DNA of 64,000 nucleotides from Acinetobacter sp. XH1741 (GTDB taxonomy: Bacteria > Pseudomonadota > Gammaproteobacteria > Pseudomonadales > Moraxellaceae), in NCBI RefSeq assembly GCF_041021895.1, contig NZ_CP157428.1:1612001-1676000 (forward strand), in the 5' to 3' direction. The notes beneath the pieces were generated by a model. That model ran no database searches, had not been told where the DNA came from, and worked only from the letters and a program-made list of their open reading frames with translations. The position numbers and the translations under genes were made by a program. Shown in pieces: positions 1 through 20,658 of the stretch. Numbering within the stretch: the stretch's first letter is position 1; each line of letters begins with the position of its first letter.

Positions 1-1712
1 TCTTTTACCACCTTACGCGCAATTTTAGAAACTTCACGTTCTAAACTACGAACACCAGCTTCACGTGTGTAACGTTGAACAATGTCACGAATCGCTTCTT
101 CATGAATTGTTAACTCTTTTGCACGTAGACCATTGTTCTTAATTGCTTTTGGAACAAGGTAACGTTCAGCAATATTTACTTTTTCATCTTCGGTATAACC
201 TGGTAGACGAATAACTTCCATACGGTCAAGCAATGCTTCTGGAATATTCATACTGTTTGCTGTACAGATGAACATCACTTCAGATAGGTCAAGATCAAGA
301 TCTAAATAATGATCGTTGAACTTACTGTTTTGTGATGGATCAAGTACTTCAAGCAATGCAGAAGCAGGGTCACCACGGTAGTCTTGAGCCATCTTGTCAA
401 TTTCATCGAGTAAGAACAATGGGTTCTTCACGCCGACTTTTGTTAAAGACTGCACAATTTTACCTGGCATCGCACCAATATAAGTACGACGGTGTCCACG
501 AATTTCTGCTTCATCACGTACGCCACCAAGCGCCATGCGAACAAATTCACGACCTGTTGCTTTAGCTACTGATTCACCGAGTGAAGTTTTACCAACCCCT
601 GGAGGACCTACTAAACAAAGGATAGGGCCTTTGAGTTTTTTCACACGTGATTGAACAGCTAAGTACTCAACAATACGGTCTTTAACATCATCAAGACCAT
701 AATGGTCAGCATCAAGAATCTCTTGAGCTTTCGCAAGGTTAATACTGACTTTACTTGCTTTGTTCCACGGCGTATCTAAAATTACTTCTAGATAGTTACG
801 TACAACGGCAGCTTCACTAGAAGCGGGCTGCATTGCTTTAAGTTTACGGAACTCAGCTTCAGCTTTTTTGCGTACGTGTTCAGGTAAATCAGCTTCAGCA
901 AGACGTTTCTCAATTTCAGCAACGTCATCTTCAGCACCGCCATTCATATCGGAAAGCTCACGTTGAATAACTTTCATTTTTTCATTTAGAAAGTATTCGC
1001 GTTGATTTTTTTCCATTTGGCGTTTTACGCTGTCATGCAAAGTTTGTTCAATTTGCTGTTCAGCAGATTGATTCATCAAGTAGTTCATCAACTCTTGTAA
1101 ATGAGCTTCAAACTCATCGTGCTCTAGAAACTTCTGTTTAATTTCAATATTAAGAGGCACACGAGTTGCTACGAAGAACATAAGTTGTAATAAGTCTTCG
1201 ATTTTATTAGCCGCAGCGACTAATTCACGTGCATTACGTAATTTTGCTTCTGCATATTGAGCAAATAAGTTACGTAACTCTTGTAAACGAGTCTCTTGAG
1301 TTGCCTTATCTACATTAATAGTCATTGGACTTAAATCATGTTCAGCAGTCAAATAACTATCTTCATCGATAATTTTTGTGAGCTTAGAACGATGTAAGCC
1401 TTCAATAAGTACTTTAATGCAGTTTTCATCATTTTCATGATTAACTACTTGCACAATCTTAGCGACTGTACCGTACTGGTATAAATTGTCGTGATCAATT
1501 TCTTCTGTAAGCGAATCTTTTTGCGCAACTACAAATACTAAATTGTCACTGTTACGAGCCACATCAACTGCATTGATCGATTTTTCACGACCCACGAATA
1601 GCGCAATTTGCATGTGTGGATAAACCACCACATCACGTAACGCTAATAGTGGTAATACACTTGGAACCTGAGGCTCTAAGTCAGTTTTTTCATTCATAAT
1701 AAGTTCAGACAT
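1..1712 (-). CDS. lon: ATP-dependent protease Lon, N-terminal part (cut by window edge)
   Basis: About 570 codons are visible from the ATG at 1712, preceded by a good Shine-Dalgarno (AGGAG); the 3' end lies outside the window. Lon is a cytoplasmic AAA+ serine protease that degrades misfolded and regulatory proteins. Visible in order are the N-terminal LAN substrate-binding domain (starting PSVLPLLALRDVVVYPHMQ), a long helical region (about residues 190-300), and the AAA+ module with Walker A (GPPGVGKTSL), Walker B (LFLLDEIDK) and the conserved RGHRRTYIGAMPGKI segment. The Ser-Lys protease domain is not in view, so its integrity cannot be judged. It is divergent from the adhesin gene that starts at 2501. 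Confidence 0.97.
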   Translation of the reverse strand, partial: MSELIMNEKTDLEPQVPSVLPLLALRDVVVYPHMQIALFVGREKSINAVDVARNSDNLVFVVAQKDSLTEEIDHDNLYQYGTVAKIVQVVNHENDENCIKVLIEGLHRSKLTKIIDEDSYLTAEHDLSPMTINVDKATQETRLQELRNLFAQYAEAKLRNARELVAAANKIEDLLQLMFFVATRVPLNIEIKQKFLEHDEFEAHLQELMNYLMNQSAEQQIEQTLHDSVKRQMEKNQREYFLNEKMKVIQRELSDMNGGAEDDVAEIEKRLAEADLPEHVRKKAEAEFRKLKAMQPASSEAAVVRNYLEVILDTPWNKASKVSINLAKAQEILDADHYGLDDVKDRIVEYLAVQSRVKKLKGPILCLVGPPGVGKTSLGESVAKATGREFVRMALGGVRDEAEIRGHRRTYIGAMPGKIVQSLTKVGVKNPLFLLDEIDKMAQDYRGDPASALLEVLDPSQNSKFNDHYLDLDLDLSEVMFICTANSMNIPEALLDRMEVIRLPGYTEDEKVNIAERYLVPKAIKNNGLRAKELTIHEEAIRDIVQRYTREAGVRSLEREVSKIARKVVK

Positions 1713-2500
1713 GGGCACTCCTAATGAGTGACAACGAGGTTGCCATGTTTTTTATAGTGATGTGTATTTCAAAAATTACAAGGGCATGACAATAGAAAAT
1801 GTTGAAAAAATGACTAATTTAGTCAACTTTTTTTTAAAAATGTTATGAATCAATAGATTAATTCTTAAGAAGAATAAAATTTTGTAGTGAAGCTAAGCAT
1901 TTTTACTTAATAATTATTCTTTACGATGTAAGGAAGATAATTCTCTTCTGGTACAAGTTTTTGTTTAGTTTTATTTTATAATTTCTATATCTGTTAAGTA
2001 TATTTAAAAATTAATTTATTTTATAATTTTATTATTAATGAGGTAATTGCACTATTATTTATAATATACACATGTATTTTAAAATATATAATTGCGAGTA
2101 AAAATTTATATTAATAACGATATTTTTTAGAGTTAATATTCTATTTTAATAAAATACAAATGTATTTTTAAAAATATTTATTTTTATTAATTTTATCAAA
2201 ATTAATCATATATTTAGAGCTATTATTCTATTTTAAAATAAAGTTACAAACTATTAACATAAACTAAACAATATATTCTTTTTTAATTTTTTATTAAATA
2301 AATTCAATATGTTGAAATTAACTATAAAATTATATTTTGTGATTAAAGTCTCATATTTTTGAGCGTTTATGTGGTTTTTATATTTACCCTTTAAATTTAT
2401 TCATTTAGGATGCCGCCTCTTTTTTTGGGCCTGAAAATTATAAAAATGTACTTCTACATTTTTATGGGTCTTTGATTTTGGTATTTGTCTGAGAAGTTTT
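1713..2500. other. AT-rich intergenic region upstream of the first adhesin
   Basis: About 790 bases without a credible gene. Roughly 1790-2400 is extremely AT-rich with long A and T runs, in contrast to the coding DNA on both sides. It must carry the promoters of lon (leftward) and of the adhesin (rightward), but I cannot place a convincing -35/-10 pair for the adhesin. DNA of this kind is a typical H-NS target, and H-NS repression of ata has been reported in A. baumannii; binding here is inference. Confidence 0.6.
2440..2465 (+). promoter_or_regulatory. Perfect hairpin in the adhesin 5' leader
   Basis: An 11-bp perfect inverted repeat (arms 2440-2450 and 2455-2465) encloses a CTTC tetraloop, 35 bases before the adhesin start codon. 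The right arm contains five T residues but is followed by ATGGGTC, so it is not a classical terminator. It could be a leader stem that affects mRNA stability or translation. Function is inferred. Confidence 0.5.
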
Positions 2501-5500
2501 ATGAATAAAGTTTATAAAGTCATTTGGAATGCTTCGATTGGAGCATGGGTTGCAACATCTGAAATTGCAAAAGGTAAAACCAAGACTAAATCAAAAACTT
2601 TAAATGTATCAGCGGTGGTTTTAGCGGGCGTAATTAGTTTTGCTCCACATGCCTTTGCAGGGACAAATACCGATGGAGGATTAGGTCAAGGTACATCTAT
2701 TTCAGGTACAACTTCATGTCGTGAAGGAAATGCGAATACTGCCAATGAAAAAGATGTCGCTATTGGTTGTGGCGCCCAAACTCAAGACAGAACAGGCTCT
2801 AACATCGCAAACCGTAACAATCCATATAATAATTCTACGGGTGCTTACGCCGGTGCAATGAAACAAGGTGGAGCAATCAGTGTCGGTACGGGCGCTGTAG
2901 TTGAAAAAGGTTTAGGAACAGCAATTGGTTCTTATGCAACAACACAAGGTATTTCAGGTGTAGCAATTGGTACAGGTGCTCTATCTTCAGGGAATACCGC
3001 TCTTGCACTTGGACGTCAATCTGCAGCGACTGCCGATTTTTCTCAAGCCATTGGTAATGTTGCAGCGGCTACAGGTAAAGGTTCTTTAGCAATTGGGCAT
3101 TCGGCAACGGCAGAAGGTTATCGTTCAATTGCAATTGGTTCACCAGATATTGAAAATGCTGACCCAGTTGCAGGACAGGCGGGTGCTGCTTATCAACCTA
3201 AAATGGCAACAAAAGCAACTGGTAAAGACTCGATTGCATTCGGTGGTGGTGCAGTAGCAACAGAAGAAAATGCTTTAGCGATTGGTGCATTTTCAGAATC
3301 TAAAGGTAAAAAGTCTGTTGCAATTGGTACAGGCGCAAAAGCAAAAAAAGATAATGCAGTTGTGATTGGAGACCAAGCTGAGGCTACTTTTGATGGTGGT
3401 GTCGCAATTGGTAAAGGGGCCCGTTCAGAAGCTGAAAATAGTATTGCTGTAGGTAAAGATTCAAAAGCAGTCCAAGCTACAGGTGAAAGTTTCTTAACTA
3501 AACAATCAGCTCCAACTGGTGTTTTATCAATTGGTGACGTGGGAAGTGAGCGCCGTATTCAAAACGTAGCAGATGGTGCAGCAGATTCGGATGCTGCCAC
3601 TATACGTCAGTTAAAAGCCGCTCGTACTCACTATGTCAGTATTAATGACAATGGTCAGCAAGGTGGCAATTTTGAAAATGATGGGGCGACTGGACTTAAT
3701 GCGATTGCTGTTGGGGTGAATACTTCGGCTGCTGGTCGTGATGCATTGGCGATTGGTGGATATGCACAAGCAATGGGCGTTGGTGCAATTTCAATGGGAA
3801 GTAGCAGCCAAACCATTGGCAGTGGTGATGTTGCTATTGGCCGTAATGCATCGACAAAAGGTGCAGCAGGAACGCCGACTGGCTATAGCAATCAGTCGAT
3901 TGCGATTGGTGATCAGACAAAAGCAATTGGAGATCAGTCAATTGCGATTGGTGCGGATGTCATTGCAAGAGGAAACTCATCTGTTGCCATTGGTGGTGAT
4001 GATGTAGATAAAATCGCCCAAGATGCCGAGTTGAGTAAAACCTATACAGAAATTACAGGTGGTGTGCTTAAAGCAGGTAAGTATCCAACGACTGAAGCGA
4101 ATCACGGCTCAACTGCTGTAGGTACTCAAGCAGTGGGTACTGGTGCATTTTCATCGGCTTTTGGTATGACTTCTAAAGCTACGGGTGATGCTTCCTCGGC
4201 TTTTGGTGTGATGTCAAATGCTTCGGGTAAAGGTGCCGCTGCATTTGGTGCGGTTGCTCAAGCAACAGGTGACGGCGCATCGGCAATGGGTATTAACTCA
4301 TTTGCATCGGGTACAAATTCAACAGCAATTGGTTCTGGTAATAAACCAGGTGAAGGTGCAAAAGCAACTGGACACAGTGCTGCTGCAATTGGTAGTGGTG
4401 CCCAAGCAACAGGCGATAACTCGGCTGCAATTGGTAAAGGGGCTGAGGCTACAAACGAAAATGCTGCTGCTGTAGGCGGCGGTGCAAAAGCAGCGGGTAA
4501 AAATGCTGCCGCTATTGGTGGTGGTGCAATTGCTGACCAAGAAAATGCAGTTGCAATTGGTCAAGGTGCTCAATCATTGGTTGAAGGTGGTGTAGCTTTA
4601 GGCGCACGCAGTAAAGTAGAAGCTAAAAATAGTGTTGCTTTAGGTCAAGATGCTGTAGCAACTGAAGCGACAGGAAGTTCTTTCCTCACGAATCGCGATG
4701 CTTCTAAATCTAATGGTGTTATTTCTGTTGGATCGGCTGGAAAAGAACGCCGTATTACCAATGTTGAAGATGGTTCGGCTGACTCGGATGCAGTAACAGT
4801 ACGCCAGCTTAAAAATGTTGATGGACGTGTAAATCAAAATGCGAGCAATATTAGTAAAAATGCTCAGAATATTACCAATCTAAATCAAAAGTTAGATGAT
4901 ACAAAAACTGACTTGGGTAACCAGATTACGGATACAAACACCAAGTTAAACAATACCAAAGATCAGTTAACAACTCAGATTAACGACACTAAAACTGAGT
5001 TAAACAATACGATTGGTAATACGAAAATTGAACTGAATAGCAAAATTGACAACACCAAGACCGAGCTTGAAAACAAAGGTTTGAACTTTGCTGGCAATAG
5101 TGGTGCAGACGTACATCGTAAATTGGGCGAGAAGCTCAATATTGTGGGTGGTGCAGCTGCTTCAACACCAGCTTCAAAAACAAGCGGTGAAAATGTCATT
5201 ACCCGTACCACTCAAGATGGCATTCAGATTGAACTGTTAAAAGACTCGAAGTTTGACAGTGTGACTACTGGCAATACTACTTTAAACAATAATGGTCTGA
5301 CGATTAAAGACGGTCCAAGCATTACTAAAGATGGTATTAATGCTGGCGGTAAACAAATTACCAATGTAGCTGATGGTGTAAATGCTAAAGATGCAGTAAA
5401 TGTTGATCAGCTAACCAAAGTAAAAGATAACTTGAATGGCAAAATTACTGATACAAATAATCAGTTAAATGATGTGAAAAAAGATTTGGGTAATCAGATC

Positions 5501-8500
5501 GCAGATACCAACAAGAATTTAAATGATGCTAAGAATGATCTTGGTAATCAGATTACGGACACCAATACCAAGTTAAACAATACCAAAGATCAGTTAACAA
5601 CTCAGATTAACGATACTAAAACTGAGTTAAACAACACGATTGGTAATACGAAAACTGAACTGAATAGCAAAATCGATAACACCAAGACCGAGCTTGAAAA
5701 CAAAGGCTTGAACTTTGCTGGTAATAGCGGTGCAGATGTACATCGTAAACTTGGCGAGAAGCTCAATATAGTGGGTGGTGCAGCTGCCTCAACACCAGCT
5801 TCAAAAACAAGCGGTGAAAATGTCATTACTCGTACCACTCAAGATGGTATTCAGATTGAACTGTTAAAAGATTCGAAGTTTGACAGTGTGACTACTGGCA
5901 ATACCACTTTAAACAATAATGGTCTGACTATTAAAGATGGGCCAAGCATTACTAAAGAAGGTATTAATGCGGGTGGTAAACAAATTACCAATGTGGCTGA
6001 TGGTGTAAATGCTAAAGATGCAGTCAATAAAGGTCAGTTAGATGATCTTGCTGCCAAGCAAAATGCAACTGATGATGCTGCAGTGAAATACGATGATGCT
6101 AAGACCAAAGACAAAGTTACCTTAAAAGGTAAGGACGGTACGGTTTTAGATAACGTGAAAGCAGGTAACATTTCATCGACTTCAAAAGAAGCAGTAAATG
6201 GTAGCCAGATTCACAATATTTCAAACAGTATTAAAAATAGTATTGGTGGCAATACAGTTGTAAATCCAGATGGTAGTTTGACTACGAATAACATTGGTGG
6301 AACAGGCAAAAACAACATCAATGATGCAATTAAATCTGTAGATGACAAAGTTACAAATGGCATTAAGGATGTTGAAAACAAAGGCTTAAACTTTGCTGGT
6401 AATAGCGGTGCAGATGTACATCGTAAACTTGGCGAGAAGCTCAACATTGTGGGTGGTGCAGCTGCCTCAACACCAGCTTCAAAAACAAGCGGTGAAAATG
6501 TCATTACTCGTACCACTCAAGATGGCATTCAGATTGAACTGTTAAAAGACTCGAAGTTTGACAGTGTGACTACTGGCAATACTACTTTAAACAATAATGG
6601 TCTGACGATTAAAGACGGTCCAAGCATTACTAAAGATGGTATTAATGCTGGCGGTAAACAAATTACCAATGTAGCTGATGGTGTAAATGCTAAAGATGCA
6701 GTTAATAAAGGTCAATTAGATGATCTTGCTGCTAAGCAAAATGCAACTGATGATGCTGCGGTGAAATACGATGACGCCAAGACCAAAGACAAAGTTACTT
6801 TAAAAGGTAAGGATGGTACGGTTTTAGATAATGTGAAAGCAGGTAATATTTCATCGACTTCAAAAGAAGCAGTAAATGGTAGCCAAATTCACAATATTTC
6901 AAACAGTATTAAAAATAGTATTGGTGGCAATACAGTTGTAAATCCAGATGGTAGTTTGACCACAAATAACATTGGTGGAACAGGTAAAAACAACATCAAT
7001 GATGCAATTAGTGAAGTGAAAAATACTGCAACTAAAGCAAAAACGACTGTAACTGAAGGTGACAACATTGTAGTAAAAGAAACTGTAAATAAAGATGGCA
7101 GTACTAACTACGAAGTATCAACCAAAAAAGATCTGATATTAGACAGCGTAACTGCGGGCGATAGCGTACTTAATCATAATGGTTTGACTATTAAAGATGG
7201 TCCAAGCATGACTAAAGATGGCATTAATGCTGGCGGTAAGAAAATTACTGATGTCGCGAACGGTGTGATTGCACAAAACTCTAAAGATGCTGTAAATGGT
7301 AGCCAGATTCACAATATTTCAAAAAGTATTAAAAATAGTATTGGTGGCAATACAGTTGTAAACCCAGATGGTAGTTTGACTACCAATAACATTGGTGGAA
7401 CGGGTAAAAACAACATCAATGATGCTATCAAGTCTGTAGATGACAAAGTTACTAATGGTGTAAATGACTTGACTCAAAAAGGGTTGAATTTTGGTGCGAA
7501 TGACCAGAAGGCAACTAAAGGTAAAGCTGTCCACCGTAAGCTTGGTGACACCATCAATATTATGGGTGGTGCTGATGCAGAAATTGCTGAGGATAAAACC
7601 AGTGGTGAAAACATCATTACTCGTACCACAGAAGATGGCATCAAAATCGAAATGCTAAAAGATGTGAAGTTCGACAGTGTAAATGTCGGTGGTCATATCT
7701 TGAATCAGCAAGGTCTCATCATTAAAGACGGTCCAAGTGTCACAATTAATGGTATTGATGCGGGTGGTAAAAAAGTTACCAATGTTGCTGATGGTGTAAA
7801 TGCCAAAGATGCTGTCAATAAAGGCCAGTTAGATAAGCAAATTAATGATGTTAAAGATCAAATTGGTAAAGATATTGGCAAACTTTCTGATCATGCTGTG
7901 CAGTATGACAAAGATAAAAATGGCAATGTCGATAAGAACTCAGTCACTTTAGGTGGCGGAGATAAAGGTACAAACCTGAAAAATGTAGCTGATGGTAAAG
8001 TTGCTGAAGGTTCTAAAGATGCCGTAAATGGTGGCCAATTATGGAATGTTCAAAATCAAGTCGATAAGAACTCGAATGATATTAAGAACATTCAGAACAA
8101 TATTGACAACATTTCTAATGGTAAAGCTGGTTTAGTTCAACAGCAAAAACCAAATGGTGAAATCACGGTTGGTAAGGATACTGGTGGTACTAGCGTAAAT
8201 ATGGCTGGTAAAGACGGTGACCGTGTTGTCCAAGGTGTCAAAGATGGCGAGATTAAAGCCGGTTCGAACCAAGCCGTAAATGGTGGTCAGATTCACAATA
8301 TTTCAGACAGTATTAAAAACAGTATTGGTGGAAATACATCAGTAAATAGTGATGGTTCAATCACGACTAAGAATATTGGTGGAACGGGTAAAGACAATAT
8401 TAATGATGCGATTGGTACATTAAATCAATCTAACCAAGAACTGGGTAATAAAATTACCAATCTGGGTGATCAGTTACAACAAGTGTTCTATGACACCAAT

Positions 8501-8752
8501 AAACGTATTGATGACGTTGAGAAAAAAGCCAATGCAGGTATTGCCGCTGCAATGGCCCTAGAAAATGCACCCTTCGTAGCAGGCAAATATACCTATGCTG
8601 TGGGTGCGGCATATCATGGTGGTGAAAACGCAGTTGGTGTGACCTTACGTAAAACCTCTGACAATGGCCGTTGGTCAATCACAGGTGGTGTGGCAGCTGC
8701 TTCTCAAGGTGAGCCAAGCGTTCGTATTGGTATTAGTGGTGTTATTAACTAA
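2501..8752 (+). CDS. ata: Trimeric autotransporter adhesin, Ata-type (copy 1)
   Basis: A 2083-residue type Vc autotransporter, expected to form an outer-membrane-anchored trimeric fibre that binds host matrix or other surfaces. It begins with an extended signal peptide region ([18 protein letters not shown]) and a hydrophobic core ending near AFA at residue 53. Two YadA-like head regions made of short AIG.A.A.G..S repeats lie at about 110-335 and 400-740. Each is closed by a neck motif ([16 protein letters not shown] near 345, [16 protein letters not shown] near 745). A long stalk with coiled-coil segments and large repeats follows (about 770-1990), then the YadA anchor in the last 80 residues ([18 protein letters not shown]). 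The protein ends GISGVIN, without the C-terminal aromatic residue common in outer-membrane beta-barrels. tpgA follows 60 bases downstream. The Ata name rests on architecture and location. Confidence 0.93.
4924..7016 (+). repeat. Large in-frame tandem repeats in adhesin 1 stalk
   Basis: The block at 4924-5403 recurs at 5551-6030 (period 627 bp), covering a coiled-coil segment plus the module from [19 protein letters not shown] to [10 protein letters not shown]. The segment 5695-6338 then recurs at 6373-7016 (period 678 bp). The copies differ by few, mostly silent, bases. All periods are multiples of three, so unequal recombination would change fibre length without breaking the frame. Confidence 0.9.
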
Positions 8753-8812: not shown

Positions 8813-9592
8813 ATGAACAAAACAATCCAAAGCTTAGTCGTAGCAGCCTTTGCTGGTTTCGCGGTGACAACTTATGCAAATGAACCCGTTCAACAACAGG
8901 AAATTCATTTTCCTGCAATTGAAAAAAGTTATTTAAAACAAGTAAAACGTTATGAATACCAAGATGTTGCTCGTTTAGATGCAGGACTGAATAAAGATCA
9001 AATTCGAGCTTTATTGGGTAATCCACAATTTAGTGAAGGTCTTTTTGCAGTAAAAATCTGGAACTATGTACTTGATGTTCGTATTCCTAATACGAACCAA
9101 TATCAACGTTGTCAGTTGCGTATTGATTTTGATAAGCACTATTTGGCAGAGCGTTTATCATGGAAAGGTGAAGCATGTGAAGGCTTGGTTGCTTGGGGGG
9201 AAAATAATCAGGTACCAGCGCATAGCAACTTAATAGGTGAGCGTACAGCCAGTGTGTTATTTGCTTTTGATCAGTTTGATGCTAAAGCGATTGAACAAGG
9301 AACTGATAGCGTTACTAAAGTTGCTGAACAAATCAAGAAAAGTGGGGCAACAACTCCTATTGTAGTTTCGGGCTTTACAGATCCTTTGGGTAAATTTAGC
9401 TATAACCAGAAATTGTCTTCTCAACGTGCTAATACGGTTGCCAAGCTATTGGTAGAACAAGGTATTGAAGCAAGCCGAATACAAATACATGCAAATAGCC
9501 AAACCGATTTATATAAGCAGTGTAGCGGTAACAATAGTTCACAAATTATTCAATGTTTAGCACCAAATAGACGTGTTAATATTACTTGGTAA
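8813..9592 (+). CDS. tpgA: TpgA-type periplasmic helper of the trimeric autotransporter (copy 1)
   Basis: A 259-residue secreted protein with a signal peptide (cleavage probably after TTYA). Its N-terminal half resembles BamE/SmpA (the [18 protein letters not shown] motif near residue 60). Its C-terminal half is an OmpA-like peptidoglycan-binding domain (about 140-259) with the [19 protein letters not shown] helix and a closing NRRVNITW. TpgA of Acinetobacter sp. Tol 5 has this BamE plus OmpA layout, sits directly downstream of AtaA and is needed for its secretion, so the same role is inferred here. The gene lies 60 bases after the adhesin and is probably cotranscribed. It has a close paralogue at 17652-18434. 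Confidence 0.88.
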
Positions 9593-9605
9593 AACGGTCT
9601 GCGCG

Positions 9606-9639
9606 AAAAAGTCACCATCCTCTAAGATGGTGACTTTTT
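9606..9639 (+). terminator. Intrinsic terminator after tpgA1
   Basis: A 14-bp perfect stem (9606-9619 with 9626-9639), loop CTCTAA, with T-rich 3' arm. The same element, slightly diverged, follows tpgA2. Confidence 0.9.
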
Positions 9640-9707
9640 CGTTTTAGGAGGCTAAAAAATAAAAAACATATATTTAAACCTATTCAGTTTATAAATTTAG
9701 ATAAACA

Positions 9708-9840
9708 TCATTTCTTTAAATAATAAAAGAGCCATGAAGCCATCAACCTCTCTAGTGTTTAGCACCTGCTTTGATGTTCTAAAGTATAACTAATCAATAT
9801 ATGAATGCTGTGTAACAAACCTCTAGCTCTATAAAAATTT
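9708..9840 (-). pseudogene. Decayed 3' fragment of a 5-formyltetrahydrofolate cyclo-ligase gene
   Basis: Read on the minus strand, the last 44 codons before a TGA at 9708-9710 encode a series alignable with the end of the intact cyclo-ligase gene (18553-19137): YRARGLLH for YRLGLAH, then YTLEHQS for HTLKRQS, then LERLM for LDALL, then FYYLKK-stop for FYYFQR-stop. It carries an in-frame TAA (9759-9761) and one extra codon in each of two places. There is no start or N-terminal part. Its stop lies 116 bases after the tpgA1 stop, against 119 bases for the intact gene after tpgA2. It appears to be a scar of a duplication that ended inside the cyclo-ligase gene. Confidence 0.72.
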
Positions 9841-10203
9841 TTACAATTAAAATTTTGTCTATATAAAAAATATTTTTAAATTTTTTCATGGAAAAGTTTA
9901 ATATTTTAAAAGTATATGTTTTATTTATAACTTAAGTGGGATTTAAATAATTAACATAAGAAAACCTTTCAATGCTCGCAACTTTTATTTTTATAAGAAT
10001 TTTATAATATTTTTTTTCTATTTAAGTGTTTATATATTGTTCATTTTTTTAAGAAACTTTTCCCATTACTGATTTTTTGTGTGATTTATTTCTCATTTTT
10101 TCTCTGATATAGTGCGCGAAAATTGCTATACCTTTTGCTTTTTGAAACTTTATGTAACTTAAGGTAAGCATCGTCTATTTTGTGTAAAAATGCGAGTAAG
10201 CAT
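9841..10203. other. AT-rich leader region of the second adhesin
   Basis: No gene is visible. The stretch is strongly AT-rich with many T and A runs and must hold the promoter of the second adhesin, which I cannot place with confidence. It shows no obvious similarity to the leader of the first adhesin and lacks its 11-bp hairpin, so the two adhesins are probably controlled separately. Confidence 0.5.
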
Positions 10204-13200
10204 ATGAATAAGATATACAAAGTCATTTGGAATGCTTCATTAGGAATCTGGGTTGCCGTTTCTGAAATTGCAAAGGGCCATTCAAAAACTCGTAGCCAAA
10301 GAACAGATGATGCTTTGGTACTTTCAACTGAAGTTTCAAACAATAATTTAATTATCAATCCCTCATCTCTCCCAGCACCACTCCTTTTTCGAATCAAACC
10401 ACTTACATGGGGGGTACTAACAGTACTTGTTCCTTCCATCACTTTTGGTGCAGTTGGTGTTAATGGTGGTGCTCTTGGGCCAAATGGTACTGTTAACTCA
10501 ACAGCAATGTCAGCATGTACTGGAACCACACCGGGAACGACTACTGGCCAAGCTTATGTAGGAGGAGACCGTTCATTAGCGTTTGGTTGTGGTGCTGTAA
10601 CAGATTCAGATAGAGATATTGCAATAGGAAGCCAAGCTTCTACAGTAAATCCAGCAAATGCGACGGGAACTTATAATGAGTCTATCGCGATTGGTGCTCA
10701 AGCCACGGCAAGTGGAGCGCAAGCTGTCGCATTAGGTGGTCAGACTGTAGCGAAAGGTAATTCATCTGTCGCTATTGGTGCTGACGATATGGATAAAGTC
10801 GCTAGTACGAATGCTCCAGCTTTTAACTATACGCCAGCTGCTGGTGATAATGCTGTATATAACAATACTGCTACTGCAACTGCATATAAAAATTTGACGG
10901 GCGATTACTTAGTCAACTTTGAACAAACAAATGGTGGTGCATCTGCAGTAGGAAATCGTTATACCAGTGTACAAACAGGTGAAGCTGCGGTTGCGGTAGG
11001 GTCAAAATCAACTGCTAATGATTTGGGGACAGCTTTAGGTCCTGTAGCGACAGCTGGGGCACTAGCATCAGTAGCATTAGGTACAAAAGCGGATGCAGAG
11101 GGGCAAGGTAGTTTATCTATTGGTGCATTGGCTTATACAGGTAAAACAGGTGATGTTGCTGTAGGTATTAATTCTGCTGCTACAGGTGGTGATTCAATTG
11201 CAATTGGTGCAGGAAAAGACTTAAAAAGTACTGCCTACGTACAATCAGGTGCAACAGCGACTCAAAAAGGTGCCAGTGCATCTGGGGCAAACTCGATATC
11301 AATAGGTACTAACACTGCGGCGACTGGTACAAATGCAGTGGTTGTAGGTACGCAATCAACTGCATCAAATCTGGCAGTAGCAGTTGGTTCAGTTGCTACA
11401 GCTGGAGACCAAAGTGTTTCTATTGGTTCAAATAGCGCAGCTTCTTCTCAAACATCTGTAGCAATTGGTGCCGGAGCACAAGCAACCTTACAGAATAACT
11501 CGGTTGCTTTAGGTAGTGGTTCTGTTGCTGATAGAGCTTCTGGTTCACTCGGATATGATCCTTTAACTGAAACGAGTACAACAAGTACCAATAGTACTTG
11601 GAAGGCAACAGATGCTGCTGTTTCAGTTGGAAATGGAACTACACGAACTCGCCAGATTACTAGCGTTGCGGCTGGAACAAATGATACAGATGCAGCCAAT
11701 GTCGCACAGTTAAAGAAAGCAACTTCTAAAGTTTTAGCTGGAACAGGTACGACAGTTGCTCAGGGAACAGATAGTAACGGTATAACGACTTATACTGTAA
11801 ACGCGAATACATTTGCGATACGTCAAGGAACGACCAATAAAGCGACTATTGGCGATAACACAAATGATAAAGTTAGCTTTATCAATGGTAAAAATACTGT
11901 TGCCAAAGTAGCGGATGAATTAAATAGCAATACTGATGTTACTTTTGATTTAGCTGATGATATTTCATTAAATAGCGTAACAACTGGTAATACGGTGCTG
12001 AATAGTACAGGTGTTACAGTTAATGGTGGGGCGAATGGTCCAGTAAAATTAACAAATACTGGGCTAGATAATGGTGGAAATAAAATCATCAATGTCGCGG
12101 CAGGCACTATTTCATCTACATCCACAGATGCAGTGAATGGTAGCCAGTTAAATACCACCAACCAGAATGTAACGACTGCGCAAAATACTGCAAATACAGC
12201 AGTGACCAATGCAGCAGCAGCCCAAGCAACGGCAGATAAAGGCCTAAACTTTAGTGTCAATGGTGGCACAGCAGACAATGTGAAGCTAGGTGAAACGGTT
12301 AACTTTGCAGATGGGACTAACACCACTGCAACGTATGATCCGACAACCAATACTTATAAATACAGCGTGAATGACAATATTGGTTTAACCAATGCGGGTA
12401 GCTTAACGGTTGGCAACACCAAGGTTGATAACAGTGGATTAACCATTACTGGTGGCCCAAGTGTGACCAAGTCTGGCATTAATGCGGCTAACCAGAAGAT
12501 TACTAACGTAGCAGCAGGCACTATTTCGTCTACATCTACAGATGCAGTGAATGGTAGCCAGTTAAATGCGACCAACCAGAATGTAACGGCTGCGCAAAAT
12601 ACTGCAAATACAGCAGTGACCAACGCAGCAGCAGCACAAGCGACGGCAGACAAAGGCCTGAACTTTAGTGTGAATGGTGGTACAGCAGACAACGTGAAGT
12701 TAGGTGAAACGGTTAACTTTGCAGATGGTACCAACACGACTGCAACGTATGACCCGACAACCAATACTTATAAATACAGTGTGAATGACAACATTGCATT
12801 AACCAATGCAGGTAGTTTAACGGTTGGCAACACTAAAGTTGATAACAGTGGATTAACCATTACTGGTGGCCCAAGTGTAACGACTGCAGGTATTAATGCG
12901 GGTAACCAAAAGGTTACTAACGTTGCAGCAGGCACTATTTCTTCTACATCAACAGATGCAGTCAATGGTAGCCAGTTAAATGCGACCAACCAGAATGTAA
13001 CGACTGCTCAAAATACTGCAAACACAGCAGTCACCAATGCAGCCGCAGCCCAAGCGACGGCAGACAAAGGCCTGAACTTTAGTGTCAATGGTGGTACGGC
13101 TGACAACGTGAAGTTGGGTGAAACGGTTAACTTTGCAGATGGTACGAACACCACTGCAACGTATGACCCGACAACCAATACTTATAAATACAACGTGAAT

Positions 13201-16200
13201 GACAACATTGCATTAACCAATGCTGGCAGTTTAACCGTAGGTAACACTAAAGTTGATAACAGTGGATTAACCATTACTGGTGGTCCAAGTGTAACGTCTG
13301 CTGGTATTGATGCGGGCAACCAGAAGATTACTAACGTTGCAGCAGGTACTAACCCGACCGATGCTGTTAATGTAAGCCAGTTGGGTGCAGCAACTACAGC
13401 AGCCAATACCAAGACAGATGCTTTAGGTACCAGTACCGCAAGTAATTTAGGTGGTGGTGCAGTTTATAATCCTGTTACAGGTGCAGTTAGTTCACCGATT
13501 TATACTGTAAATGGCAACAACGTAAATAACGTGGGCGCTGCAATCACGGCATTGGACAAAGGCTGGACACTACAAAGCAATGGTGCCAATGCAGGTGCAG
13601 TGAAAGCTGGTGATACGGTTGATATTGGTACGGCTACAGGTGAAACGAACCTGAAAGTAACTAAAACTGGTAACAATATCCAGTATGGCTTAAACCGTGA
13701 TCTTAATATTGACAGTGTAACGGCAGGCGACAGCAAGTTAGACACTAACGGTTTAACTATTACTGGCGGTCCAAGTGTAACCAAGTCTGGCATTAATGCA
13801 GCTAACCAAAAGATTACTAATGTTGCAGCAGGAACCATTTCTGCTACATCAACAGATGCAGTGAATGGTAGCCAGTTAAATGCGACCAACCAGAATGTAA
13901 CGACTGCGCAAAATACTGCAAACACGGCAGTGACCAACGCAGCAGCAGCCCAAGCAACGGCAGACAAAGGCCTGAACTTTAGTGTCAATGGTGGTACGGC
14001 TAAGAACGTGAAGTTGGGTGAAACGGTTAACTTTGCAGATGGTACGAATACGACTGCGACGTATGACCCAGCAACCAATACTTATAAATACAGCGTGAAT
14101 GACAACATTGCGTTAACCAATACAGGTAGCTTAACGGTCGGCAACACTAAAGTTGATAACAGTGGATTAACCATTACTGGTGGTCCAAGTGTAACGTCTG
14201 CTGGTATTAATGCAGGCAACCAGAAGATTACCAATGTTGCAGCAGGTACTAACCCGACCGATGCTGTTAATGTAAGCCAATTGGGTGCAGCAACTACAGC
14301 AGCCAATACCAAGACAGATGCTTTAGGTACCAGTACCGCGAGCAATTTAGGTGGTGGTGCAGTTTATAATCCTGTTACAGGTGCAGTTAGTTCACCGATC
14401 TATACTGTAAATGGTACTAACGTAAATAACGTGGGCGCTGCAATCAGTGAATTGGACAAAGGCTGGACATTACAAAGCAATGGTAGCAATGCTGGTGCAG
14501 TGAAAGCTGGTGATACCGTTGACATTGGTACAGTTGCAGGTGAAGCCAACCTGAAAGTCACCAAAACTGGAAACAATATCCAGTATGGCTTAAACCGTGA
14601 TCTGAATATTGACAGCGTAACGGCAGGTGACAGCAAGTTAGACACTAACGGTTTAACTATTGCAGGTGGCCCAAGCGTGACCAAGTCTGGCATTAATGCG
14701 GCTAATCAAAAGATCACCAACGTTACAGCAGGCACTATTTCGTCTACATCAACAGATGCAGTGAATGGTAGCCAGTTAAATGCAACCAACCAGAATGTAA
14801 CGACTGCTCAGAACACTGCAAACACGGCAGTGACCAATGCAGCAGCAGCACAAGCGACGGCAGACAAAGGCCTGAACTTTAGTGTCAATGGTGGTACAGC
14901 AGACAACGTGAAGTTAGGTGAAACGGTTAACTTTGCAGATGGTACGAACACGACTGCAACGTATGACCCGACAACCAATACTTATAAATACAGCGTGAAT
15001 GACAACATTGCGTTAACCAATGCTGGCAGTTTAACCGTAGGTAACACTAAGGTTGATAACAGTGGATTAACCATTACTGGTGGTCCAAGTGTAACGTCTG
15101 CAGGTATTAATGCGGGTAACCAAAAAGTTACTAACGTTGCAGCAGGCACTATTTCTGCTACATCAACAGATGCAGTCAATGGTAGCCAGTTAAATGCAAC
15201 CAATCAGAATGTAACGACTGCTCAAAATACTGCAAATACAGCAGTGACCAATGCAGCGGCAGCACAAGCGACGGCAGACAAAGGCCTGAATTTTAGTGTC
15301 AATGGTGGTACGGCTGACAACGTGAAGTTGGGTGAAACGGTTAACTTTGCAGATGGGACTAATACCACTGCAACCTATGATCCGACAACCAATACTTATA
15401 AATACAGCGTGAATGACAACATTGGTTTAACCAATGCAGGTAGTTTAACGGTTGGCAATACTAAAGTTGATAACAGTGGTTTAACGGCTGGCAATACTAA
15501 GGTTGATAACAGTGGATTAACCATTACTGGTGGGCCAAGTGTAACGTCTGCTGGTATTAATGCAGGCAACCAGAAGATTACCAATGTTGCAGCAGGAACT
15601 AATCCGACCGATGCTGTTAATGTAAGCCAATTGGGTGCAGTAACTACAGCAGCCAATACCAAGACAGATGCGTTGGGAACCAGTACAGCGAACAACCTAG
15701 GTGGTGGTGCAGTTTATAATCCTGTTACAGGTGCAGTTAGTTCACCAACTTATACCGTAAATGGCAATAACGTAAATAACGTGGGTGCTGCAATCACTGC
15801 ATTGGACAAAGGCTGGACACTACAAAGCAATGGTGCCAATGCAGGTGCAGTGAAAGCTGGTGATACGGTTGATATTGGTACGGCTACAGGCGAAACAAAC
15901 CTGAAAGTCACCAAGACTGGAAACAATATCCAGTATGGCTTAAACCGTGATCTTAATATTGACAGCGTAACGGCAGGCGACAGCAAACTAGATACCAATG
16001 GTTTAACTATCACAGGCGGTCCAAGCGTGACCAAGTCTGGCATTAATGCAGCTAACCAAAAGATTACTAATGTTGCAGCAGGCACTATTTCTGCTACATC
16101 AACAGATGCAGTAAATGGTAGCCAGTTAAATACCCTCGATAATCGTGTGACTAAGAATGGTGATTCTACAGCCAATATTTTTGGTGGTGGTGCCAAAGCT

Positions 16201-17592
16201 AATCCAGATGGTTCGATTTCTAACCCGACTTATAATGTTGCAGGTACAAGTGCCAACAATGTAGGCGATGCATTAACAGCACTTGATAAAGCAGTCACTG
16301 ATGCAGGTACAGCAGCAAATGCAGGCTGGACTGTTTCAGCCAATGGCGATACAGCGACTGCTAAAAACATCAAGCCAAATGGCAAAGTCAACTTTACAGG
16401 CGACGATAACTTAACCGTTGCTCAGACGAGCAATACGGATAATGAAGGTAACATTAAGGTTGCGCTGAACAAAAACTTGAAGGTTGATAGCGTTACAACG
16501 GGTACGACAGTAATTGATACGACTGGCGTAAAAGTTGGAGATAACGTTCAGTTAGGAGCAACAGGTTTAACTATTGTTGGTGGACCAAGTATTATGACTT
16601 CTGGAATCAGTGCAGGTAACAAGGTTATTACCAATGTAGCTGCTGGTGTTAACACGACAGATGCAGTGAACAAAGGCCAACTTGATAGTGCAATCACGAA
16701 CATTAATAACAATGTTGGTGCATTGGCTAATAGTGCAGTTCAGTATGACAAAAATGCAGATGGTACAGTCAACAAAGACTCTGTGACTTTAGCAGGTGGT
16801 GCTAATGGTACAGCACTTAAGAATGTCGCAAATGGTACGGTAGCAGAAGGTTCTAAAGATGCTGTAAATGGAGGCCAGTTGTGGAATGTTCAACAACAGG
16901 TTGACAAAAATACGGGTGATATCTCGAACCTTCAAAATAACATTAACAATGGTAAAACTGGTCTAGTTCAACAAGCGGATAAAGATGCTGCGATTACTGT
17001 TGGTAAAGACACGGGTGGTACACAAGTTAATGTTGCTGGAAAAGCGGGTGACCGTACGGTGACTGGCGTTAAAGCGGGTGCAGTGACTGAGTCTTCAAAA
17101 GATGCAGTAAATGGTTCTCAGCTTAATGCAACCAATCAGGCGCTTGTAAACGCACTAGGTGGTGGAGCGGGTTATAACAATATTACCGAAAGCTTCTCAA
17201 ACCCTACGTATAACGTGGCTGATAAGTCTTACAACAATGTCGGTGATGCGATAGGCGCATTGAATCAAGCTGATCAAACATTAAACAATAAAATTGATAA
17301 TGTGAACAACAAGCTTGAGCAAGCGTTCTATGCAACAAATCAGCGTATCGACAACTTGGAAGAAAAAATGTCTGCTGGTATTGCTGCAAATGCTGCACTT
17401 GAAAATGCGCCATTTATTGCAGGGAAAGTCACTATGGCTGTTGGTGCTGCTTACTATAATCAGCAAAATGCTGTAGGTGTGACTGTGCGTAAAACAGCCG
17501 ACAACGGTCGCTGGTCACTTACAACAGGTGCAGCGCTTGGCAGTCAGGGTAGCCCATTAGTACGAGTTGGTGTAAGTACAGTCATTGACTAA
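10204..17592 (+). CDS. Trimeric autotransporter adhesin, Ata-like (copy 2)
   Basis: About 2462 residues from the ATG at 10204; an upstream in-frame start at 10180 is rejected because [14 protein letters not shown] is the conserved beginning of the extended signal peptide region. Unusually, some 40 polar residues separate that motif from the hydrophobic core ([14 protein letters not shown], about residues 69-82). A YadA-like head follows (about 130-460), then a neck ([19 protein letters not shown] near 480). A very repetitive stalk runs from about 510 to 2380. The YadA anchor ([19 protein letters not shown]) ends in VSTVID, again without a terminal aromatic. The last 300 residues match copy 1 closely, while heads and most of the stalk differ. 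This suggests a shared anchor with diverged binding parts. tpgA2 follows. Confidence 0.92.
12238..16130 (+). repeat. Modular repeats of adhesin 2 stalk (414-bp and 900-bp periods)
   Basis: The module starting [19 protein letters not shown] begins at 12238, 12652, 13066, 13966, 14866 and 15280, giving spacings of 414, 414, 900, 900 and 414 bp. The longer units contain a second module ([13 protein letters not shown] to [17 protein letters not shown]) that begins at 13351, 14251 and 15601. Copies are nearly identical at the DNA level. All periods are multiples of three. Confidence 0.92.
15451..15522 (+). repeat. 36-bp in-frame tandem duplication in adhesin 2
   Basis: Two adjacent units (15451-15486 and 15487-15522) encode [12 protein letters not shown] and [12 protein letters not shown]. 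All other copies of this stalk module carry the unit once. The two DNA copies differ at only four positions, so the duplication looks recent. Confidence 0.9.
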
Positions 17593-17604
17593 TTTTGACT
17601 AGGC

Positions 17605-17651: not shown

Positions 17652-18434
17652 ATGAAAAATACAGTTAAGGTGTTATTTATTGCTGTTCTTTCTGGCCTGG
17701 CAATGGTTAGTTATGCACAAGAAGACACAAGATCTCAGCAAGAGGTTACTTTTCCTAAAGTATCTGATAGCTATTTAAAACAAGTAAAACGTTATGAGTA
17801 CCAAGATGTTGCTCGTTTAGACTTAGGGCTGAATAAAGACCAGATTCGAGCTTTATTGGGCAATCCCCAATTTAGTGAAGGAGTATTTGCAGTAAAAGTC
17901 TGGAACTATGTACTTGATGTGCGTATTCCTCACACAAACCAGTATAAACGCTGCCAGTTACGTATTGATTTTAATAAAAAGTATTTGGCAGAACGTTTAT
18001 CGTGGAAAGGTGAGGAGTGCGAAGGCTTAGCTGCTTTGGGTGAAAATAATCAGTCACCTGTGAACAATGCTGTGATTAGTGGACGTACAGCAAGCGTTTT
18101 ATTCGCTTTTGATCGTTCCGATGCAGCTGCAATTCAGCAGGGTTTAAACAATCTAGACAAAGTTGTCGATCAAATTAAGCAAAGCCCATCGACAACACCT
18201 ATTATTGTTTCTGGATTTGCAGATCCATTAGGTAAGTTTAGTCATAACCAAGAATTATCTTCTAAACGAGCCAATACGGTGGCTAAACTACTTGTACAAC
18301 AGGGAGTAGATCCAAATCGTATACAAATACAGGCAAATAGTCAGACCGATATATATAAGCAGTGTAGCGGTAACAATAGTTCACAACTTATTCAATGTTT
18401 AGCACCAAATAGACGTGTTAATATAACTTGGTAA
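17652..18434 (+). CDS. tpgA: TpgA-type periplasmic helper of the trimeric autotransporter (copy 2)
   Basis: 260 residues from the ATG at 17652; the open frame extends to 17595, but only this start gives a signal peptide ([22 protein letters not shown]). It has a BamE-like half ([18 protein letters not shown]) and an OmpA-like peptidoglycan-binding half ([19 protein letters not shown], closing NRRVNITW). It is very similar to the copy at 8813, and the last roughly 85 coding bases plus the following dozen are almost identical between copies (two differences). It is probably cotranscribed with the adhesin 59 bases upstream and supports its secretion or anchoring. Whether each TpgA serves only its own adhesin is unknown. 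Confidence 0.88.
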
Positions 18435-18450
18435 AACGGTCTGTCACGGC

Positions 18451-18481
18451 AAAGTAATCACCCTCTTAGGGTGGTTACTTT
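18451..18481 (+). terminator. Intrinsic terminator after tpgA2
   Basis: A 14-bp stem with one G-T pair (18451-18464 with 18468-18481), three-base loop CTT, then further T residues. Homologous to the terminator after tpgA1. Confidence 0.88.
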
Positions 18482-18552
18482 TTCGTTTTAGGAGACTAAA
18501 AAATACAAAGCATATATTTAAAACTGTTAAGTTCTAATATTTTATATAAATA

Positions 18553-19137
18553 TCATCTTTGAAAATAATAAAAGTGTTGAGGCGTAAGTAGAGCATCTAA
18601 GGGTTGATCCCAGCTTTGTCGTTTTAAGGTATGTTCAATGAATTGAAACTGATGTGCCAATCCTAAACGGTAAGGCTTATGCTTAGCACTTGCCAAAGTA
18701 CGATCATAATATCCGCCCCCCATACCAATACGTGTCCCATATTGATCACAGGCCAAAAGTGGCATAAGCAGTAAATCAAGCTCTGATACATGTTTTCCTC
18801 GCGTTGCCATAGGTTCTTTCATACCTAAGGGATGGTGAGAAAACCGTCGAGTTAAATATTGGTTCTTATTTATTTTTACCCATACTAAACGTTGGTTCAT
18901 TGAACAAATCATTGGTAAATAAACGTGTTTGTTCTTTTTAAAACATAGTTTGATAAGAAGATCAGTATGGATCTCACCAAATGCATGTAAATATAAGCCG
19001 ATTTTTTTTGAAGAATGAAAAATAGGAAGGTGATTCAGCTCATGTAATACCCGAAGCTGAGCCTTTTTTTGCTCAAATTGAGTTAAAGAACGTCTTTTAG
19101 ATCTTAGATTTTTTCTAATAAAACTTAGTTCATTCAT
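18553..19137 (-). CDS. ygfA: 5-formyltetrahydrofolate cyclo-ligase
   Basis: A 194-residue cytoplasmic enzyme that converts 5-formyl-THF to 5,10-methenyl-THF using ATP. Family marks are the N-terminal RKNLRSKRRSL basic helix, the central GKHVSELDLLLMPLLACD, the glycine-rich ATP site RIGMGGGYYDRTL and the C-terminal LDALLTPQ. The ATG at 19137 is preferred over an upstream TTG at 19152. In enterobacteria ygfA follows the 6S RNA gene directly, but here they are about 1.3 kb apart with opposite-strand genes between. A decayed copy of its 3' end lies at 9708-9840. Confidence 0.93.
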   Translation of the reverse strand: MNELSFIRKNLRSKRRSLTQFEQKKAQLRVLHELNHLPIFHSSKKIGLYLHAFGEIHTDLLIKLCFKKNKHVYLPMICSMNQRLVWVKINKNQYLTRRFSHHPLGMKEPMATRGKHVSELDLLLMPLLACDQYGTRIGMGGGYYDRTLASAKHKPYRLGLAHQFQFIEHTLKRQSWDQPLDALLTPQHFYYFQR

Positions 19138-19376
19138 GGATAAATCTAACAAAGATTTGAGATCAGTCGTGCAAAATTATACCTACTTTTCTATAACTTC
19201 ACTGAAATATCCTCATTATTGAAAAAATAGTCGAACTTACTTAGTAAAGTAACTATATTTTGTTCCGAGAAGAATCTATTTGCATAAGTTTTATAATTTT
19301 TTTACCTATTTACAGTATTTATTTATCTTTAATCAGGATAAGTATATTTAAAGATGAATATGAAACTGTGAAGCAG

Positions 19377-20336: not shown

Positions 20337-20473
20337 TTAACAATAGTAGAGATTTAATTTTTAAGTTTATCTAATTAATTTGAAAAAATGAACTTTGAAA
20401 TAGACTGACAGATCTGTCTTGAAATCTTAATTTAAAATAAAAATTATATTAATAGTGATCTAAGAAAAATAAA

Positions 20474-20653
20474 TACTCCGAAGATGCCGCTGCATGTGTC
20501 GTTACCCTGAACCCGATGAGTTCAAGGTGGACGCGACGTATACTTCCTGGGTTTCCTACACAGGGTAGGCATACACTCTAAATATACAGAACACAATCCA
20601 TAAGTTTAAGTATCGGCAGGGGAATAGACCCGCTGGCGAACATCCCAGAGTTA
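20474..20653 (-). ncRNA. ssrS: 6S RNA
   Basis: Minus-strand sequence matches 6S RNA landmarks: near the 5' end GGGATGTTCGCCAGCGGG, then TCCCCTGCCGATA, and near the 3' end CCTTGAACTCATCGGGTTCA with GTAACGACACATGCAG. The two ends pair to form the closing stem around a large central bubble that mimics an open promoter and traps sigma-70 RNA polymerase in stationary phase. The location downstream of zapA is the conserved gammaproteobacterial position. Ends are approximate: the 5' end is set from the promoter at 20659-20686. Confidence 0.9.
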
Positions 20654-20658
20654 GCTTA

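Follow-up and report, generated by a model that had tools for sequence, protein, structure and literature searches.

A decayed ygfA 3' end between two ata-tpgA cassettes in the adhesin slot of an Acinetobacter

The window, a stretch of 64,000 nucleotides from Acinetobacter sp. XH1741 (contig NZ_CP157428.1), comes from a member of the A. baumannii complex and carries two adhesin cassettes, each made of an ata gene followed by tpgA, in the slot between lon and ygfA (Table 1). Between the cassettes lie a second copy of the spacer that separates tpgA from ygfA and, beyond it, a short minus-strand segment that resembles the end of ygfA and runs directly into the upstream region of ata2. As regards site-specific integration at the ygfA 3' end, the only open reading frame of at least 80 codons in this A-B junction, according to the ORF list, is an antisense frame at 10086-10529 that overlaps the start of ata2. 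The inverted repeat in the left spacer is probably a two-way terminator and probably still ends transcription of tpgA1; a simple terminator scan listed none in the left spacer (9593-9707), and a sigma-70 scan of 9500-10260 was uninformative, with 3 promoters found and 4.5 expected from shuffles. On the far side of the slot, a 6S RNA gene (20471-20654, minus strand, Rfam 100.6 bits) lies on the 5' side of ygfA at a distance of about 1.3 kb, and two plus-strand ORFs occupy the interval.

Table 1. Features of the lon-ygfA slot in the window
Feature	Coordinates	Strand	Remarks
lon, left edge of the adhesin slot	3..1718	-	Runs off the window start; lon matches also in relatives
ata1, trimeric autotransporter adhesin, cassette A	2501..8752	+	
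tpgA1, cassette A	8813..9592	+	
Left copy of the tpgA-ygfA spacer	9593..9707	.	82% over 115 columns to the right copy; spacer profile E 1.3e-16
Inverted repeat in the left spacer	9604-9641	.	Self-inverted, 89% over 38
ygfA 3'-end relic	9708..9821	-	Terminal TGA 9710-9708, one internal stop; best-supported part 9709-9797
Upstream region of ata2 (B type), fused to the ygfA relic	9822..10203	+	
ata2, trimeric autotransporter adhesin, B type	10204..17592	+	ATG common to relatives at 10204; start in the ORF list is TTG 10180
B/C crossover zone (cassette fusion)	17552..17600	+	B-type to the left, C-type to the right
tpgA2, C type	17652..18434	+	
Right copy of the spacer and terminator	18435..18552	.	
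Intact ygfA (5-formyltetrahydrofolate cyclo-ligase)	18553..19152	-	Last 90-115 bases are the relic's counterpart

Translated on the minus strand, positions 9839-9708 read NFYRARGLLHSIHILISYTLEHQSRC-stop-TLERLMASWLFYYLKK-stop. These 44 codons, counted with the closing TGA, are interrupted by a single stop, in agreement with an earlier note on this DNA. That note took these codons for the 3' end of ygfA and named the lack of a significant translated match to YgfA as evidence to the contrary; the match is significant. The best translated alignment spans 37 codons (9821-9711) and pairs GLLHSIHILISYTLEHQSRC-stop-TLERLMASWLFYYLKK with GLAHQFQ-FIEHTLERQSWDQPLDGLLTPQHFYYFKR at the C-terminus of YgfA from genome G097, which we take to be A. 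baumannii ATCC 19606. It scores 55, a value reached by none of 500 dinucleotide shuffles (mean 21.1, SD 3.5, maximum 44). A DNA profile built from the coding sequences of 16 ygfA genes, spacer excluded, matches window positions 9797-9709 at model positions 511-599 of 600 (E 1.4e-4 in a search of 12 slot intergenic regions). Only two matches at E<1 emerge from these 12 regions: both lie in A-B junctions, on the ygfA strand, and end at the last bases of the gene. A profile of the last 240 bases of ygfA, run over 2.2 Mb (192 records, some overlapping), recovers the window relic at E 0.008. It yields 163 matches; among the 25 listed below 26 bits, the two A-B junctions score 15.4 and 20.9, a row at 25.2 bits belongs to the ygfA of L151, and no site other than ygfA exceeds 12.3 bits, the score of a place in L156. 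The block formed by spacer, terminator and tail (9590-9798) aligns at 72-74% identity (E 1e-26 to 1e-32) to the junctions of tpgA with ygfA in the window itself and in four other genomes, and at 63-69% (E 1e-10 to 1e-23) to those in eight further genomes. The distances from tpgA to the end of ygfA, given by the earlier note as 116 and 119 bases, are right (tpgA1 ends at 9592, tpgA2 at 18434, ygfA at 18553).

By these alignments, minus-strand 9708-9821 is what decay has left of the 3' end of ygfA, roughly the final sixth of the gene. The similarity is in the frame and orientation of ygfA, its signal is confined to about 30-37 of the 44 codons, and the enzyme cannot be encoded: of 199 codons only about the last 30-37 are present, interrupted by a stop. 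Since the enzyme is not encodable, and since the two recognisable relics, that of the window and the one described below from A. nosocomialis NIPH 2119, share just 58% identity over 90 bases, the segment appears to be dead and decaying, with no sign of function. The ygfA coding profile detects no further piece of the gene in the A-B junction below E 1. A resemblance of another segment, 9986-10037, to 19277-19326, which lies upstream of ygfA, came up in blastn when low-complexity filtering was switched off (E 2e-5) and was set aside: in the A-B junctions, a profile of the ygfA upstream region from 16 genomes gives only E 2 in A. nosocomialis GNU001 and 9.5 in the window, and at another place. 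Nor do relics of ygfA appear at E≤1 in three B-C junctions, two lon-A intergenic regions or, outside the complex, four joints between first and second cassettes and four stretches of 1500 bases after the last cassette; six lon-side intergenic regions likewise hold none below E 1 by the coding profile.

We surveyed the slot in 15 genomes of the complex and in a locus of A. lactucae, picked by ygfA identity of about 87% or more or by DNA match; genus-wide searches covered 175 genomes, which may include further members of the complex. Three cassettes occupy the slot in A. nosocomialis GNU001 (G008) and A. nosocomialis NIPH 2119 (G169), two in the window and in A. seifertii NIPH 973 (G112), and one in G097 and G007, while G158 and G121 have at least one on contigs that end short of lon. 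The slot is empty in A. pittii ATCC 19004 (G004), in G095, G148, G060, G066, G074 and G165, and in the A. lactucae locus (L093). Genomes with one cassette, which the earlier note had recommended looking for, are represented by G097 and G007; in these two, and in G158 (whose contig ends short of lon), ygfA is directly preceded by a lone cassette whose ata anchor is of the A type. Seven of the empty slots (L077, L078, L082, L084, L086, L088 and L180; 435-452 bases) retain, by eye, the tpgA terminator, and three of these seven (G060, G066 and G074) match the last 27 codons of tpgA in tblastn searches; from the terminators and tpgA remnants, the empty slots are identifiable as scars of cassette loss. 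Searching the genus with 9593-9850 as DNA gives matches at E≤1e-4 in at least nine of 175 genomes (best few candidates per genome). Eight of the nine lie within the lon-ygfA slot and the ninth, in G110, is 59 bases long, so that the segment away from tpgA, which the earlier note would have held against its reading, did not turn up among the eight placed matches. In A. seifertii NIPH 973 (L073) the two cassettes have short, broken ata frames, and the first combines an A-type upstream region with a B-type anchor and tpgA; its A-B junction has probably been lost. In NIPH 2119 (L178 from 11683 to L179 15632) ata B starts about 24 kb away from its anchor, and the intervening DNA matches neither tpgA nor the end of another ata, which points to either a giant adhesin gene or an insertion.

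The relic is shared. NIPH 2119 carries one at the same A-B junction (coding profile, model positions 521-600, E 2.7e-6; translated score 60, reached by 0 of 500 shuffles), and the junctions are colinear, with 67% identity over 649 positions between the window and NIPH 2119 and 77% over 614 between NIPH 2119 and GNU001. Between the window and GNU001 identity is 72% over 389 positions plus the terminator, with no match between these; in the GNU001 junction the relic is not detectable, as the ygfA profile finds none and the translated test stays within chance (38 of 500 shuffles reach the score). From this colinearity, the join most likely either arose once before the lineages split or passed between them. 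The A-B junction of the window and A. nosocomialis thus most likely descends from one old event, and the joining event, by its presence in A. nosocomialis, appears older than the window's species.

At 11 sites one base is common to the ygfA ends of G169, G008, G112 and G097 and another stands in the ygfA of the window. The window relic sides with the four at 8 of these sites, with the window's ygfA at 1 and with neither at 2, a pattern which argues that it is not a recent copy of the window's ygfA. The NIPH 2119 relic has the base of the four at 7 of 10 such sites and the window's base at 2. Where these four genomes are fixed for a different base from G158, G007, G121, G095, G165 and G004, the window relic has the base of the four at 5 of 5 sites, and the relic of NIPH 2119 has it at 3 of 5. 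Among the spacers, the left copy in NIPH 2119 shows more identity to those of G165 (94%) and G097 (92%) than to the right copy in the same genome (89%), while the left copy in the window has several spacers at about equal distance. The longest exact run common to both repeats is 18 bases in the window and 25 in NIPH 2119, and with runs this short, present-day excision between the repeats is probably rare.

Tandem duplication and unequal crossing-over leave scars in which a truncated gene copy marks the join. A truncated copy marks the join here too, but the DNA beyond it does not clearly repeat what precedes the first unit: for cassette A, no derivation from the region upstream of ata1 is apparent. 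At E≤0.01, neither a profile of the A upstream regions nor one of the B upstream regions detects the other type, and for the window's B region against five A regions z lies between -0.1 and 1.3 (60 shuffles a pair). The B upstream regions of GNU001 and NIPH 2119 reach z of 2.4 to 3.0 against some A regions (again 60 shuffles a pair), by which a very faint kinship of the two may exist. Among the matches listed, the B upstream region occurs only in the three A-B junctions; long matches are found in 3 of 175 genus genomes, and four further genomes have matches of only 39-50 bases. The cassettes differ in their genes as well: A and B ata anchors share about 66-72% protein identity, and tpgA1 and tpgA2 are 76.7% identical in DNA. 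In the tpgA tree, all 14 sequences of the complex fall into one clade (support 100/100), which suggests that, within the sampled tree, tpgA itself did not come from outside the complex. A and B sequences are sisters (96/94), and tpgA of G097 groups with A. The tpgA sequences of G007 and G158 group with those of C (85/85, not strong) rather than with A, so both genomes are imperfect stand-ins for the ancestor.

In its second cassette the window appears to combine a B-type ata with a C-type tpgA, a fusion of cassettes that A. nosocomialis keeps apart. Within the final 900 bases of ata2, types B and C can hardly be told apart as far as about 17220. Between 17280 and 17460, identity is 96-98% to cassette B of GNU001 and 64-76% to cassette C; from about 17580 it is 95% to C and 50% to B. 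The switch is sharp and lies at the end of ata2. The tpgA of B and the ata of C, together with the junction between B and C, have therefore probably disappeared from the window, which probably carries a shrunken three-cassette array. The fusion appears later than the joining event. Near the 3' end of tpgA2 (18294-18434), one 120-column interval is closer to the A type (88%) than to the C type (80-82%), and an exchange between cassette 3' ends may perhaps have taken place there.

How the junction was made we infer from these patterns, and we lean, with some reserve, towards a one-sided recombination that put other cassettes between cassette A and ygfA through a non-homologous join within ygfA. 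The ancestor of the window's species and A. nosocomialis would have had cassette A directly before ygfA, as single-cassette genomes have today. A later recombination would have separated the two by inserting at least one cassette of a different type, B and perhaps also C. On one side, about 90-115 bases of ygfA, still attached to the terminator of cassette A, would have been fused non-homologously to the upstream region of ata B, with the join at about base 485-510 of the 600 bases of ygfA. On the other side, the incoming cassettes would have ended in the same terminator and ygfA, where ordinary homology, in the terminator or in ygfA, kept the gene intact. Afterwards the relic would have drifted and, in the window, the B-type ata and C-type tpgA would have been fused. 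The reading of the earlier note is borne out in part: tpgA1 very probably once adjoined ygfA, and a breakpoint inside ygfA is supported. Its proposal that the second cassette arose by duplication or by homologous insertion holds in part. Insertion with one homologous end fits, and a simple duplicate of cassette A is not supported, given the upstream scores of the window; another unit of the array may still have been duplicated, and the present second cassette is itself a later B/C fusion.

Several observations count against the one-sided insertion. No donor with B directly before ygfA was seen in the B upstream search of 175 genus genomes, GNU001 has no detectable relic, G007 and G158 group with C in the tpgA tree, and some A-B upstream pairs reach z of 2.4 to 3.0. 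The sisterhood of A and B tpgA also weighs against it, as duplication within the array would give the same grouping. This sisterhood is explained by the main rival, which we regard as improbable though serious: a tandem duplication of an inner unit, from the B upstream region to inside ygfA, after which the left copy recombined with cassette A. Such a course would account for the non-homologous join of ygfA to the B upstream region as well, and the window, probably like A. seifertii, shows an array contracted by recombination; this rival requires an extra step, however, and leaves the difference between A and B ata anchors to be explained. A tandem duplication of the whole unit (ata, tpgA, terminator and ygfA tail, with its left end upstream of ata1), in which the second cassette copies the first, would yield exactly a ygfA tail on the left and an intact ygfA on the right, and would agree with the tpgA sisters and with the faint upstream scores of up to z 3.0. 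Against it stand the upstream region of ata2, which is not clearly like that of ata1, and the divergence of both ata anchors and tpgA genes between the cassettes; it was already disfavoured, and we give it little credence.

Less probable still is ectopic gene conversion, in which the right end of the array would have served as template and the tpgA 3' end, terminator and ygfA tail would have been written beside tpgA1. The A-like interval in tpgA2 from 18294 suggests that an exchange of 3' ends may have happened, but the conversion tract would have to extend past the homology into ygfA, and the relic is closer to the ygfA of other species than to the window's own, by the 8-to-1 pattern described above. 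Chance resemblance in AT-rich DNA draws on a weak result, the unanchored DNA-only comparison of the whole intergenic region with the whole ygfA coding sequence, where 59 of 1000 shuffles reach the score; when the DNA test is restricted to 133 bases, with the bounds chosen by the earlier note, 0 of 1000 do. A relic at the same place in another genome, the matching spacer and terminator, the end of the match at the last codon and the translated shuffles together refute chance in practice.

Homology-facilitated illegitimate recombination is known from Acinetobacter transformation, in work on Acinetobacter baylyi. The locus shows one homologous end and an intact anchor gene, with spacer, terminator and ygfA tail on both sides. 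A product of such recombination would also have a few bases of microhomology at the illegitimate join; here the junction is much decayed, and the profile matches begin at model position 511 in the window and 521 in NIPH 2119. The outcome proposed above is the one expected of this process: in naturally competent bacteria, homologous recombination at one end and an illegitimate join at the other can leave an insertion that is flanked on one side by a shortened anchor gene (PMC3240628). That description concerns linear DNA in the laboratory (PMC3240628), whereas the event here is deduced from an old, decayed junction. In A. baumannii, the order lon-ata-tpgA-cyclo-ligase is reported to be conserved in 93% of the ata-bearing genomes whose contigs permit the test, and lon and the cyclo-ligase gene are neighbours where ata is missing (PMC6363060). 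The same source finds ata in 78% of genomes of the nosocomialis-seifertii-baumannii clade versus 2% of the calcoaceticus-dijkshoorniae-pittii clade (PMC6363060). The order lon-ata-tpgA-ygfA is the same in our material, and the seven empty slots agree with the reported absences, with the terminator still visible. The part of that report concerned with the locus makes no mention of more than one ata (PMC6363060); here there are two cassettes, three in two A. nosocomialis genomes, and a ygfA fossil between the first two. A literature search of titles and abstract openings returned no account of several ata cassettes in the slot or of a ygfA relic. Scars of this kind are ordinary. The relic is a modest but clean example of a gene tail as a fossil marker, useful for adhesin evolution: it helps to order the history of an adhesin locus in hospital bacteria, and suggests that, of the cassettes, the first was the earlier to adjoin ygfA, the extra ones having come between them in a shared ancestor. 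Counts of ata by locus will overlook fused and lost cassettes.

Outside the complex, the ata genes near ygfA are found on its 5' side and not between it and lon (loci L094-L099, L186, L189 and L191). An ata starts there and diverges from ygfA in A. higginsii, NIPH 2100, ANC 3929, A. proteolyticus, A. gyllenbergii, 15BJ, G084 and G069. The stretch available beside ygfA in A. proteolyticus and A. gyllenbergii contains no tpgA; G132 has an ata end with tpgA beside ygfA followed by a second cassette, and a second ata is also present in 15BJ, G084 and G069. The order is thus lon-ygfA-ata-tpgA outside the complex and lon-ata-tpgA-ygfA inside it, which implies that cassettes have swapped sides relative to ygfA at least once. 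The lon-ygfA slot could, as a tentative proposal, be a long-lived, genus-wide cassette array that grows by one-sided captures clipping ygfA and shrinks by crossing-over between cassettes; clipped tails would then record steps of growth, and perhaps the passage of ygfA between the sides of the array. The upstream region of ata1 (2104-2500) is homologous to the divergent ygfA-ata intergenic region of species outside the complex, and the A upstream region is recognisable there ahead of the ygfA-proximal ata (profile E 4e-6 to 1.5e-12, z 4.9 to 9.6). Cassette C has an upstream region similar to the one before the second cassette of 15BJ (z 3.2 to 4.9), a likeness by which the array may in part predate the complex.
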